NCBI RefSeq assembly: GCF_014203735.1
Contig: NZ_JACHJQ010000006.1
Location: forward strand, 319,698-383,697
DNA from: Actinophytocola algeriensis
Lineage (GTDB): Bacteria > Actinomycetota > Actinomycetes > Mycobacteriales > Pseudonocardiaceae
Direction of reading: 5' to 3'
Length of the DNA stretch: 64,000 nt
In this document: one piece after another, positions 26,118-32,977 of the stretch
Layout of the letters: each line of letters begins with the position of its first letter
How positions within the stretch are numbered: position 1 is the stretch's first letter
The notes under the pieces: generated by a model
The model's database searches: none
Told to the model about the DNA's origin: nothing
The model's input: the letters and a program-made list of their open reading frames with translations, nothing else
Position numbers and translations under genes: made by a program

Positions 26118-26145
26118 GTCTCCCAGAGTAGGCCACCACAATTTC

Positions 26146-26157
26146 GAACGTTGTCCA
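26146..26157. promoter_or_regulatory. TetR operator half-site upstream of DUF1214/sulfotransferase operon
   Basis: GAACGTTGTCCA here is identical to each arm of the inverted repeat in front of cysD and tetR (32313-32324 and, inverted, 32334-32345). The identity extends to 15 nt (GAACGTTGTCCAGAA). It lies 49 bp before the 26206 start. The shared sequence points to common control by the TetR protein at 32360. Confidence 0.65.
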
Positions 26158-26174
26158 GAATGGGTCGACTCTGG

Positions 26175-26188
26175 TAGAACGTGTTCTA
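26175..26188. promoter_or_regulatory. KstR-like palindrome
   Basis: TAGAACGTGTTCTA fits the consensus TNNAACNNGTTNNA known for the mycobacterial/rhodococcal steroid regulator KstR and related TetR proteins. It is symmetric except for its two central bases and lies 18 bp upstream of the 26206 start, close to where a promoter would be blocked. Confidence 0.55.
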
Positions 26189-26205
26189 GATCCAGGGAGG
26201 TGCGC

Positions 26206-27261
26206 ATGGCCGACGCGCAGGTCTGGGCCGAGTTCTGCCAGGCGTTGGAACGAGCGGGCGAGGTGGTCCTGCGGGACCGGGCACCGGCGACGCCCCTCGA
26301 CCGGGCCGAGGGCTACCGGTACCTCACCCGCCTCGTGCGCGAGATGCTGTACTCGACGGTCGAGAACGCCGATCCCGACTTCCCGCGCCTGCACGAGCTG
26401 GACCGCGTCAAGATCGGCGCCGACAACCCGGACAACGTGTACCTGTCGGCGAACATCCGCGGCGACCGCACGTACCGGATCACCGGCACCCGCGGCACGA
26501 TCGCCTACTTCTCGATCGGCTCGAAGGCCAACCGGTACGCCAAGGACGGCACGATGGCCTCCACCGGCGAGCTGTCCGACGCCGACCTCGTGGTCGAGCC
26601 CGACGGCACCGTCGAGATCATCGCGAGCGCCACCCCGCACGACAAGAACTGGTTGCCGTTGGCCCCCGACTCGACGAGTCTCGTGGTGCGCCAGACCTAC
26701 CTCGACCGCACCACCGAGGTACCCGGCCGGTGGCGGATCGAGTGCGTCGGCGGGCGCGCCGAGCCCCGCGACCTGTCCCCCGAGTTCCTCACCAAGGCAC
26801 TGCGCAGGGCGGCGCTGTCCGTGCACGGCACCGCGGCCACCTTCGCGCACTGGACCGAGCTGTTCATGACCCGCCCCAACGAACTGCCGGACTTCGGCCA
26901 GGAGATGTTCCAGCGCGCGGGCGGTGACCCCGAGATCTTCTACCTGCACGGCTACTGGACGCTCGAACCCGGCCAGGCGTGGGTGATCGAGACCGAGGTC
27001 CCCGACTGCCCGTACTGGAACTTCCAGCTGAGCAACTGGTGGATGGAGTCCCTGGACAACGACCGGCGGATCACCGTCAACAAGCACACCGCCACCCTCG
27101 ACGACGGCCGCCTCACGATCGTCGTCGCGCCCCGGGACCCCGGCTGGGGCAACTGGATCGACACGTCCGGCCACACCAGCGGCACCGCGCTGCTGCGCTG
27201 GCTCGGCGCCGACCACCACCCGATCCCGGACTGCCGCGTCATCGACCTGGAGGCGACATGA
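26206..27261 (+). CDS. DUF1214-domain protein
   Basis: 351 residues. The C-terminal half has the DUF1214 pattern: GYWTLEPGQAWVIETEVP, YWNFQLSNWWMESLD, and a closing DPGWGNWIDTSGHTSGTALLRW. The N-terminal half (about 20-120) includes YRYLTRLVREML and TRGTIAYFSIGSK. No enzymatic residue set is established for the family; in mycobacteria and relatives such genes sit near lipid and steroid catabolism and sulfotransferases. No signal peptide is seen with ATG 26206, which is preceded by GGGAGG. Stop overlaps the sulfotransferase start (ATGA). Probably handles the substrate or product of sulfation; inference. Confidence 0.85.
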   Translation: MADAQVWAEFCQALERAGEVVLRDRAPATPLDRAEGYRYLTRLVREMLYSTVENADPDFPRLHELDRVKIGADNPDNVYLSANIRGDRTYRITGTRGTIAYFSIGSKANRYAKDGTMASTGELSDADLVVEPDGTVEIIASATPHDKNWLPLAPDSTSLVVRQTYLDRTTEVPGRWRIECVGGRAEPRDLSPEFLTKALRRAALSVHGTAATFAHWTELFMTRPNELPDFGQEMFQRAGGDPEIFYLHGYWTLEPGQAWVIETEVPDCPYWNFQLSNWWMESLDNDRRITVNKHTATLDDGRLTIVVAPRDPGWGNWIDTSGHTSGTALLRWLGADHHPIPDCRVIDLEAT

Positions 27262-31392: not shown

Positions 31393-31393
31393 C

Positions 31394-32290
31394 TCAGAAG
31401 TAACCTTCCCGCTTCTTGCGCTCCATCGACCCGGACTGGTCTCGGTCGATCACCCGGCCCTGCCGTTCCGAGGTCACCGCGGCCTCGGTCTCGGCGACGA
31501 TCTCCGCCACGGTCGCCGCCGTGCTCTCGACCGCGCCGGTCAGCGGGTAGCAGCCCAGCGTCCGGAACCGCACCGTCCGGAGCGCCGGCTCCTCACCCGG
31601 CCCCAGTGGCATGCGGTCGTCATCCACCATGATCAGCGCGCCGTCCCGCTCGACGACCGGTCGCGGCGCCGCGAAGTACAGCGGCACCACGGGAATCCGC
31701 TCGCGTTCGACGTACCGCCACACGTCCAGCTCGGTCCAGTTCGACAGCGGGAACACCCGGATGCTCTCGCCCGGCGCGGTGCGCGCGTTGTACAGCCGCC
31801 ACAGCTCCGGCCGCTGCGCGCGTGGCTCCCACCGGTGGTCGGCCGTGCGGAACGAGAACACGCGTTCCTTGGCCCGCACCGGTTCCTCGTCGCGGCGCGC
31901 ACCGCCGAACGCGAGGTCGAACCGGTGCTTCTCGAGCGCCTGCCGGAGCCCCTGGGTCTTCCACATGTCCGTGTGCGTCGCGGAGCCGTGGTCGAACGGG
32001 TTGATGCCGAGCGCCAGGCACTCCGGGTTGCGGTGGACGATCAGCTCCAGGCCCAGCTCGTCGGCGGTGCGGTCGCGGAAGGCGATCATCTCGCGGAACT
32101 TCCAGGTGGTGTCCACGTGCAGCAGCGGGAACGGCGGCTTCGACGGGTGGAACGCCTTGCGCGCGAGGTGCAGCAGGGTCGAGGAGTCCTTGCCGATCGA
32201 GTACAGCAGGACCGGGCGCTCGCTCTCGGCGACCGCCTCGCGCAGGATGTCGATGCTCTCCGCCTCGAGCCGGTCGAGATGGGTCAGCAT
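31394..32290 (-). CDS. cysD: Sulfate adenylyltransferase subunit 2
   Basis: 298 residues, full length for the family. PP-loop ATP-pyrophosphatase signature YSIGKDSSTLLHLARKAF near the N-terminus, HVDTTWKFREMIAFRD, GGARRDEEPVRAKERVFSFR, and a C-terminal MERKKREGYF tail typical of CysD. It catalyses sulfate adenylylation with CysN. ATG 32290 faces the tetR gene; the 69-bp gap holds the 12-bp inverted-repeat operator, so TetR control of PAPS synthesis is likely. Confidence 0.96.
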   Translation of the reverse strand: MLTHLDRLEAESIDILREAVAESERPVLLYSIGKDSSTLLHLARKAFHPSKPPFPLLHVDTTWKFREMIAFRDRTADELGLELIVHRNPECLALGINPFDHGSATHTDMWKTQGLRQALEKHRFDLAFGGARRDEEPVRAKERVFSFRTADHRWEPRAQRPELWRLYNARTAPGESIRVFPLSNWTELDVWRYVERERIPVVPLYFAAPRPVVERDGALIMVDDDRMPLGPGEEPALRTVRFRTLGCYPLTGAVESTAATVAEIVAETEAAVTSERQGRVIDRDQSGSMERKKREGYF

Positions 32291-32312
32291 GACTCGATGA
32301 TAGGGCCATTTT

Positions 32313-32345
32313 GAACGTTGTCCAGAAGTGAATTGGACAACGTTC
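32313..32345. promoter_or_regulatory. TetR operator between cysD and tetR
   Basis: Perfect inverted repeat: GAACGTTGTCCA (32313-32324), 9-bp spacer, TGGACAACGTTC (32334-32345). It begins 23 bp before the cysD start and ends 14 bp before the tetR GTG. The same 12-mer recurs at 26146. Typical layout of an autoregulated TetR divergent promoter. Confidence 0.8.
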
Positions 32346-32359
32346 GATATGCTGTGGGC

Positions 32360-32977
32360 GTGGACAGCACCGAACCAACCGCATGGGGTGACGCCGAGGG
32401 CCGCCGACGCGACATCCTGCGCTCCGCGGAGAAGCTGCTCGCCGACTCCGGCTACGCCGCGCTGACCATGCGCGCGATCGCCGTCGGCGCCGGCGTCAGT
32501 TCCGGCACCGTGTACCAGTACTTCGACGGCAAGGAGGACGTGTTCGTCGCGCTCATGTCGGCCCGGCTGGCGGACATGACGACCACGCTCGACGAGCTGG
32601 ACCCCGGCGTCGGGATCACCGGGGTGCTGTCCGCGATCCTGCCGCAGGTGCGCGAGCTATGGCGGCTGTTCGGGCGGTCCGCGCAGCAGTGGGAGTCGAA
32701 GGTGCTCGCGGGCGGACCGAAGGGCAAGCGGGCCGTCACGTCGGCGACGGTGTTCCGCCGCATGGCGCGCGCACTGGAGAAGGCGCTACGCACGGCGGCC
32801 GCCGCGCAGGGAGTCGCGCTGGTCGACCACCCCGCGATGGCCTACTGGGTCTGGGACTCGCTGATCGGCGTCGCCGACGACCTCGTGCACGGCGGTTCGC
32901 TGCAGGCACGGGTGTCGGCAGGCCGCCTCGTCGAGTTCGCGACCGAGGCGATCGAGCGCGGCATCGTGGCGCGTTAG
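32360..32977 (+). CDS. TetR-family transcriptional regulator
   Basis: 205 residues. N-terminal HTH (about 15-62): RRRDILRSAEKLLADSGYAALTMR and VGAGVSSGTVYQYFDGKEDVF pattern. The C-terminal helical domain is of unknown ligand class. GTG 32360 is preferred; in-frame starts further upstream (ATG-like at 32318, GTG 32354) would fall in or against the operator. It is divergent from cysD with a perfect dyad between them, and a matching half-site sits upstream of the sulfotransferase operon. Likely a repressor of the whole sulfation locus, released by the acceptor molecule or a derivative. Confidence 0.9.
   Translation: MDSTEPTAWGDAEGRRRDILRSAEKLLADSGYAALTMRAIAVGAGVSSGTVYQYFDGKEDVFVALMSARLADMTTTLDELDPGVGITGVLSAILPQVRELWRLFGRSAQQWESKVLAGGPKGKRAVTSATVFRRMARALEKALRTAAAAQGVALVDHPAMAYWVWDSLIGVADDLVHGGSLQARVSAGRLVEFATEAIERGIVAR

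Follow-up and report, generated by a model that had tools for sequence, protein, structure and literature searches.

A predicted KstR-controlled steroid-sulfation module with its own sulfate-activation genes in Actinophytocola algeriensis

A compact group of seven genes and three DNA sites, examined here as a putative sulfation module, occupies positions 26141-32977 of a 64,000-nucleotide stretch of Actinophytocola algeriensis DNA (contig NZ_JACHJQ010000006.1), hereafter the window (Table 1). On the forward strand, genes for a DUF1214 protein, a Sulfotransfer_3 sulfotransferase, a short-chain dehydrogenase/reductase (SDR) and an SRPBCC protein form an operon (26206-29616) with ATGA overlaps at all three junctions (starts at 27258, 28382 and 29155). 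The cysNC gene converges on this operon and overlaps the SRPBCC end (29616) by 24 bp, the cysD stop (31394) and the cysNC start (31392) lie one base apart, and a TetR gene diverges from cysD. All seven products were identified by Pfam or NCBIfam profiles with scores above the cut-offs; gene starts were set by overlap and motif, and unannotated loci were called with a simple script. A preliminary description, made from the sequence and its open reading frames, had proposed a stop-to-start operon facing cysD and cysNC, which the junctions, coordinates and profile scores bear out. It had also placed a TetR gene at the end of the unit; this gene is present and divergent from cysD, with its start corrected to the GTG at 32354 or 32360, because the first TTG (32318) falls within an inverted repeat.

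Table 1. Genes and DNA sites of the predicted sulfation module, with positions in the window
Feature	Position	Strand	Evidence
Probable TetR operator element GAACGTTGTCCA, single copy upstream of the sulfation operon	26146..26157	+	Exact match
KstR box TAGAACGTGTTCTA, 17 nt 5' of the DUF1214 start	26175..26188	+	Match to motif TNNAACNNGTTNNA
DUF1214 protein, 351 aa	26206..27261	+	PF06742 38.8 bits, cut-off 25 (longer frame scored)
Predicted PAPS-dependent sulfotransferase, 375 aa	27258..28385	+	PF13469 130 bits, cut-off 27 (longer frame scored)
SDR, 258 aa	28382..29158	+	PF13561 165.9 bits; NF005909 above cut-off (longer frame)
SRPBCC / polyketide cyclase-like hydrophobic-ligand protein, 153 aa	29155..29616	+	PF10604 50.4 bits
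CysNC, ATP-sulfurylase GTPase subunit fused to APS kinase, 599 aa	29593..31392	-	NF004035 894 bits, cut-off 715
CysD, ATP-sulfurylase small subunit, 298 aa	31394..32290	-	NF009214 525 bits, cut-off 413
Probable TetR operator, perfect 12-bp inverted repeat GAACGTTGTCCA-N9-TGGACAACGTTC	32313..32345	.	Between the cysD and TetR starts
TetR-family regulator	32354..32977 (start GTG 32354 or 32360)	+	PF00440 58.6 bits

The expected enzyme motifs are intact. The sulfotransferase carries PRTGST, LKSPHH and HRSP, CysD carries SIGKDS, the kinase part of CysNC carries GLSGAGKST, DGDN.R and SFISP, and the SDR retains its Gly motif and Ser-Tyr-Lys residues, all motifs that we assume to have their customary functional meanings. 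The PF13469 score and these motifs predict a sulfotransferase dependent on 3'-phosphoadenosine 5'-phosphosulfate (PAPS), and its residues G87, R90, G92, T94, R247 and S255 are invariant in 34 aligned rows. A profile search of solved structures retrieved PDB 2zq5 (E 1.9e-81), which we take to be Stf1, and 2z6v. For DUF1214, the relative among solved structures is PDB 6ans, titled merely uncharacterized protein.

The origin and destination of PAPS were addressed with profile searches of the whole window genome (9.73 Mb, 98% complete). The only kinase of adenosine 5'-phosphosulfate (APS) found is the CysC part of CysNC at the locus, and the only PF13469 match is the sulfotransferase at 27258-28385, so the sole APS kinase and the sole PF13469 protein of the genome stand side by side; PF00685 sulfotransferases were not found, in searches with working controls. 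PF01507 gave three matches, namely the CysD of the locus and an adjacent pair on another contig. An assimilation set lies elsewhere (C1:930000-946000) and comprises CysH, CysD, a CysN without a kinase domain and a nitrite/sulfite-reductase-like protein for which the best models score below their own cut-offs. This CysH contains CC and CxxC pairs, the mark of iron-sulfur APS reductases, and if it is an APS reductase, assimilation needs no PAPS. Because this separate set exists, the PAPS made at the locus is probably destined for sulfation. The view in the preliminary description that cysDNC feeds sulfation is thus supported by a single APS kinase standing apart from the assimilation genes; its observation that the locus has no APS/PAPS reductase or sulfite reductase also holds, the genome copies being those on C1, and the locus cysDN is accompanied in the genome by a second CysD/CysN, the APS kinase being single. 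The refuting case of an only copy, named by that description, therefore does not apply to cysDN.

We then compared the locus with its relatives. A search of 297 genomes of the family for relatives of the sulfotransferase, at E 1e-20, found them in 129, where they fall into two sharply separate sets: a close set of 38 places in 37 genomes (64-100% identity) and a distant remainder (25-40%). For comparison, 36 close loci (one per genome, the window genome excluded) and 20 distant loci were fetched. The order DUF1214-sulfotransferase-SDR is kept in 36 of 36 close loci, more than a chance arrangement, and SRPBCC was detected in 31, CysNC in 31, CysD in 30 and TetR in 30. The co-occurrence that the preliminary description proposed as a check, of DUF1214, sulfotransferase, SDR and SRPBCC with cysD/cysNC, is found, completely for the first three and in 31 of 36 loci for SRPBCC and for CysNC. 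Two layouts recur: four close loci are convergent, like the window, and 27 have a divergent TetR followed by cysD-cysNC-DUF1214-sulfotransferase-SDR in one direction (cysD being undetected in one). A named collection returned 148 relatives, of which 80 were kept. Those at 61-78% identity come from Actinophytocola, Lentzea, Saccharopolyspora, Umezawaea, Pseudonocardia, Aeromicrobium, Frankiales and Acidimicrobiia; another 26 loci at 33-43% are mostly from Proteobacteria, including SAR86, with DUF1214 directly before the sulfotransferase in 19. In Pseudoduganella namucuonensis the order is cysD-cysNC-SDR-DUF1214-sulfotransferase-SDR-SRPBCC.

The association with PAPS synthesis extends to the whole family sample. 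Strong APS kinases (E < 1e-20) occur in 128 of the 129 sulfotransferase genomes versus 74 of the 168 without. At E < 1e-60 the sample has 129 APS kinases, of which 94 lie within 10 kb of a related sulfotransferase; such proximity is seen in 32 of 37 close-set genomes and in 62 of the 92 with a distant relative only. A tree of 47 CysD rows, midpoint-rooted for drawing, splits with full support into two deep groups, one holding the window, its close relatives and Pseudoduganella, the other the module CysDs of the distant set, a Tsukamurella plasmid copy and the assimilatory CysD of the window genome. PAPS genes would therefore have joined such operons at least twice, and this apparent repeated recruitment is the best evidence for a functional neighbourhood.

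Several loci vary the theme. Saccharopolyspora indica (L094, L150) has two sulfotransferase copies in one run, sulfotransferase-SDR-sulfotransferase-SRPBCC. In SAR86 and one other Gammaproteobacteria assembly (L202, L203, L207, L211-L215, L220, L222, L223), DUF1214 directly precedes the sulfotransferase, an SDR then follows in 10 of these 11 loci, and the KstR motif was not seen there. A Tsukamurella tyrosinosolvens plasmid (L225 3138-10140) carries an adenylyl-sulfate kinase gene, cysD, a regulator, a DUF1214-like gene, an SDR and a sulfotransferase in the distant layout, the DUF1214-like protein being a weak match below the cut-off. Within the distant set, a SnoaL_4 protein lies between cysD and DUF1214 in L128 (5768-6295), the locus in which the domain was tested, and proteins with a similar start occur in other loci; the close set instead ends with SRPBCC.

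Two regulatory signals accompany the genes. The first, at 26175-26188, is a perfect box for KstR, the cholesterol-catabolism repressor; nothing else in the window matches TNNAACNNGTTNNA, for which 0.06 matches would be expected. The published motif, as given in the portion of the KstR study that describes it, is of the TnnAACnnGTTnnA type (PMC1995591), and this motif is present in the promoter of the sulfation operon. In the window genome the loose motif occurs at 57 places versus 22 for the reversed control, and a subset with strong arms was examined. The kstR gene is present (L039:7361-7960; 319 bits, cut-off 280) with its own box at L039:7169, and further boxes precede genes for two 3-oxosteroid 1-dehydrogenases (kstD), for a steroid thiolase with a divergent P450 gene beside it, and for an HsaD-like hydrolase, itself below cut-off. 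Merging both sources gave 57 distinct close loci, of which 52 had at least 200 nt upstream of DUF1214 and could be judged (L148, L171, L175, L186 and L195 stand outside this count). The motif lies upstream of DUF1214 in 50 of these 52, perfect in 43, and is absent at this place in L123 and L191. The close loci fetched, 90 with duplicates counted and 1.52 Mb in all, contain 94 motif matches, of which 82 sit at this very site. Within the distant set, DUF1214 is present in 13 of the 20 loci and is preceded by a box in 10 of these 13, one box having a single arm base off; boxes were displayed if within two letters of TAGAACNNGTTCTA, so that weaker ones are possible in L132, L139 and L141.

The regulator itself follows the sulfotransferase. 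A curated model finds KstR in 155 of the 297 genomes: in all 37 with a close sulfotransferase, in 122 of the 129 with any related sulfotransferase and in 33 of the 168 without. The conserved box predicts that the operon is under KstR control. The steroid acceptor, offered as one possibility by the preliminary description, is strengthened by the conserved box and the KstR co-occurrence, both of which that description had missed.

Two further genomes may be recorded here. A congeneric genome (G031) has neither the sulfotransferase nor KstR, yet two APS kinases. Another (G051, of the same genus as the Lentzea loci) has KstR, and neither sulfotransferase nor APS kinase was found in it by the same searches, as expected if the pair travel together.

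The second signal, GAACGTTGTCCA, has three exact copies in the window, one lying 17 nt before the KstR box and two forming the inverted repeat between cysD and TetR. The genome holds five exact copies, the three of the locus and two single ones elsewhere. One of these two falls 19 nt into a called gene, the other where no gene is called, and neither has a clear reading frame. With at most one mismatch the element occurs at 43 places in the genome versus 22 for the reversed pattern; a wider regulon, for which the exact copies were examined, is conceivable. In 48 close loci both flanks were long enough to judge: cysNC and TetR occur together in 31, cysNC alone in 2, neither in 15 and TetR alone in none, so that TetR accompanies 31 of 33 cysNC-bearing loci versus 0 of 15 others. 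The element, with at most one mismatch, lies upstream of DUF1214 in 26 of the 33 versus 0 of the 15. Because of its placement and its co-travel with the TetR gene, GAACGTTGTCCA is probably the operator of the local TetR; and from these counts the KstR box appears to follow the sulfotransferase operon and the TetR element the PAPS genes. The TetR switch of the preliminary description thus gains support from three exact elements at two promoters and from their travelling with cysDNC in relatives.

The wider genomic setting was surveyed by searching eleven steroid markers from the window genome in 138 fetched loci and the window; the marker names beyond KstR, KstD and steroid thiolase are our own presumptive labels. 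All 5 Aeromicrobium loci returned have the operon amid steroid genes: a steroid thiolase is present in each of the five, and in four there are also P450, Ltp-like thiolase, hydratase or IpdA-like genes nearby. Elsewhere, kstR- or fadE34-like genes are near 4 of 9 Frankiales/Frankiaceae loci, a kstR-like gene is near 1 of 4 Pseudonocardia operons, and a marker accompanies one distant locus, L132.

Taken together, we consider this locus to be, with good probability, a self-supplied, KstR-controlled and TetR-tuned steroid-sulfation module of a sterol-degrading soil actinobacterium; the gene set, motifs, boxes, conservation and co-occurrence are established at the level of sequence. CysD and CysNC would use sulfate and ATP to make first APS and from it PAPS. 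The SDR would interconvert ketone and hydroxyl on a steroid-type compound, setting the hydroxyl, while SRPBCC, and perhaps DUF1214, may hold or process the hydrophobic compound, SRPBCC presenting it to the sulfotransferase. The latter would move the sulfuryl group from PAPS to the hydroxyl, yielding a polar sulfate. A hydroxy-steroid arising in sterol degradation would be the acceptor, and sulfation would serve its conjugation or export. KstR would repress the operon through the promoter box and release it when sterol metabolites accumulate, and the local TetR would also repress, through its operators in the operon promoter and in the shared cysD/TetR promoter. By responding to a second ligand, TetR would add a second condition and scale the PAPS supply. 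With KstR and the shared TetR operators, sulfation and PAPS supply would thus rise together when steroid is degraded and the second ligand is present.

Several points weigh against this interpretation. No sequence feature names the acceptor, which we infer to be a steroid, and activity, product and DNA binding are all predictions from sequence. The window itself contains none of the steroid markers, the operon lying outside the steroid cluster of the genome, and just 11 of the 138 fetched loci show one; the KstR motif was not seen in proteobacterial relatives such as SAR86. KstR without the sulfotransferase occurs in 33 genomes, and the module is therefore dispensable for some KstR bearers; Fisher values for such co-occurrences overstate independence, because the genomes share ancestry. 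The lack of nearby cysNC and TetR at 15 of the 48 roomy orthologous loci makes the PAPS genes frequent rather than obligatory neighbours; homologous loci without cysDNC are what the preliminary description had seen as telling against its proposal. The singularity of the sulfotransferase holds within the scope of PF13469 and PF00685, as the PF09037 and PF17784 searches were uninformative, with silent controls. Finally, the assimilatory CysH passes a phosphoadenylyl-sulfate reductase model (257 bits, cut-off 154) and misses the APS-reductase model TIGR02055 by 15 bits (220, cut-off 235); because the model scores favour the former, its putative assignment to APS leans on the CC/CxxC rule.

Other readings share much of this evidence. 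The acceptor could be a lipid, a quinone or a xenobiotic encountered during sterol growth, with KstR acting as a general lipid signal, which we regard as possible though unlikely. The KstR regulon is presented as a large lipid-degradation regulon in the part of the KstR study that introduces it (PMC1995591), related sulfotransferases on Sphingomonadaceae plasmids have a mixture of oxidoreductase, transport and dehalogenase genes around them, and SAR86 likewise has the core; against this, the operons of Aeromicrobium and several other loci are flanked by homologues of the sterol genes of the window genome. It is more doubtful that sulfation is a catabolic activation, the sulfate ester being a leaving group for an elimination and DUF1214/SRPBCC taking the next step. 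In its favour, the operon has the type of box found at catabolic genes and is accompanied by two uncharacterised proteins. The sulfotransferase profile also matches CurM, in which sulfation presumably activates an alcohol for elimination; however, this match is weak (E 6e-5) and covers just profile positions 240-337, no thioesterase-like partner is in the operon, and the 33 KstR genomes lack the module. That the locus cysDNC serves mainly assimilation or general PAPS supply in a coincidental neighbourhood is very improbable, the 15 loci without nearby cysNC and the best score of CysH being outweighed by a full assimilation set elsewhere (CysH of the CC/CxxC type, CysD and CysN), on which we rejected it as the assimilation copy, by the repeated recruitment and by the shared operator element.

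A bolder extension of the steroid-sulfation module can be put forward tentatively, as possible though unlikely: that it marks an unrecognised branch of bacterial steroid catabolism, equipped with a regulator and PAPS supply of its own and spread over several actinobacterial orders and proteobacteria. A ring or side-chain hydroxyl would there be sulfated as a step of metabolism, and DUF1214 would be a new enzyme acting on the steroid or its sulfate. Aerobic steroid degradation is well mapped, yet the cholesterol gene table, in the form consulted, leaves some KstR-controlled genes without function (PMC6429209). The repeated recruitment of cysDNC ties the group of DUF1214, SDR and sulfotransferase to PAPS synthesis and leads to the testable prediction that such steroid degraders make steroid sulfates. 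If so, an unstudied conjugation or sulfation branch would be added to bacterial sterol metabolism, new steroid sulfotransferases would become available to biotechnology, and the findings may bear on losses in industrial sterol conversion.

The scanned subset of window genes outside 26141-32977 belongs to other metabolism, transport and regulation. Two neighbours were considered as module members and rejected: an MHYT gene adjoins the orthologous locus in A. oryzae only among the loci searched, and an acyltransferase gene lies beside none of the searched orthologous loci. Downstream, a further unit spans 33596-39683 (+): a gene for a sensor histidine kinase with HisKA_3 and HATPase_c domains is overlapped by that of a LuxR-type response regulator (36829-37488), and an MMPL transporter gene (37599-39683) follows; the true kinase start is probably further in, because the long frame overlaps the opposite-strand MHYT gene. 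On the reverse strand, 7730-14071 encodes a 2113-aa protein with ThuA, GSDH, PKD, CBM6, GH43_C2, DUF1349 and Ig-like domains. Genes for a sugar ABC transporter, a xylose-isomerase-like protein and a ROK regulator lie in its vicinity. The reverse strand also encodes a polysaccharide lyase family 8 protein (42367-44766).

Among known systems, we compare the operon first with the mycobacterial genes Rv3531c-Rv3530c-Rv3529c of the KstR regulon. We take Rv3531c to be a DUF1214 protein and Rv3529c to be Stf1, the set thus presumably holding the core genes in another order, with the cysDNC of the tubercle bacillus located away from it. The window order, DUF1214-sulfotransferase-SDR-SRPBCC, differs from the presumed mycobacterial DUF1214-SDR-sulfotransferase, whereas the adjacency of the three families and the KstR box are alike. 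The distant group described above has the order DUF1214-SDR-sulfotransferase with a KstR box, as is presumed for the mycobacterial set, and its sulfotransferases share 32-36% identity with the window enzyme. A KstR motif with positive evidence between Rv3531c and Rv3532 is given in the KstR study (PMC1995591), and the cholesterol gene table, as far as it covers these genes, gives Rv3530c as a possible oxidoreductase and Rv3529c and Rv3531c as hypothetical, with no function (PMC6429209). In the relevant part of another study, mycobacterial cysDNC is described as a complex of ATP sulfurylase and APS kinase that produces PAPS, the reductive pathway branching off at APS (PMC3141025). Compared with it, the window copy is a second CysD/CysN with a local TetR, apart from the assimilation copy.

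The other comparison is with Bacteroides, a gut anaerobe with no known sterol ring degradation. Its BT_0411-BT_0416 cluster, in the portion of the report that presents it, places putative PAPS-synthesis genes beside a sulfotransferase proven to form cholesterol-3-sulfate, both being cholesterol-responsive (PMC9417993). The adjacency of PAPS genes and sulfotransferase is alike in the two systems; they differ in that the same portion mentions no DUF1214, SDR, SRPBCC operon or KstR (PMC9417993). Given this cluster and the motif between Rv3531c and Rv3532 (PMC1995591), as far as these sources go, the statement of the preliminary description that no such system is described was too strong. In the titles and abstract openings of the open-licence papers retrieved, a link between KstR and a sulfotransferase was not seen and DUF1214 was not found as a subject. 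New in this locus are the combination of genes and its predicted double control, together with a PAPS copy of its own and the wide range over which these genes are associated.

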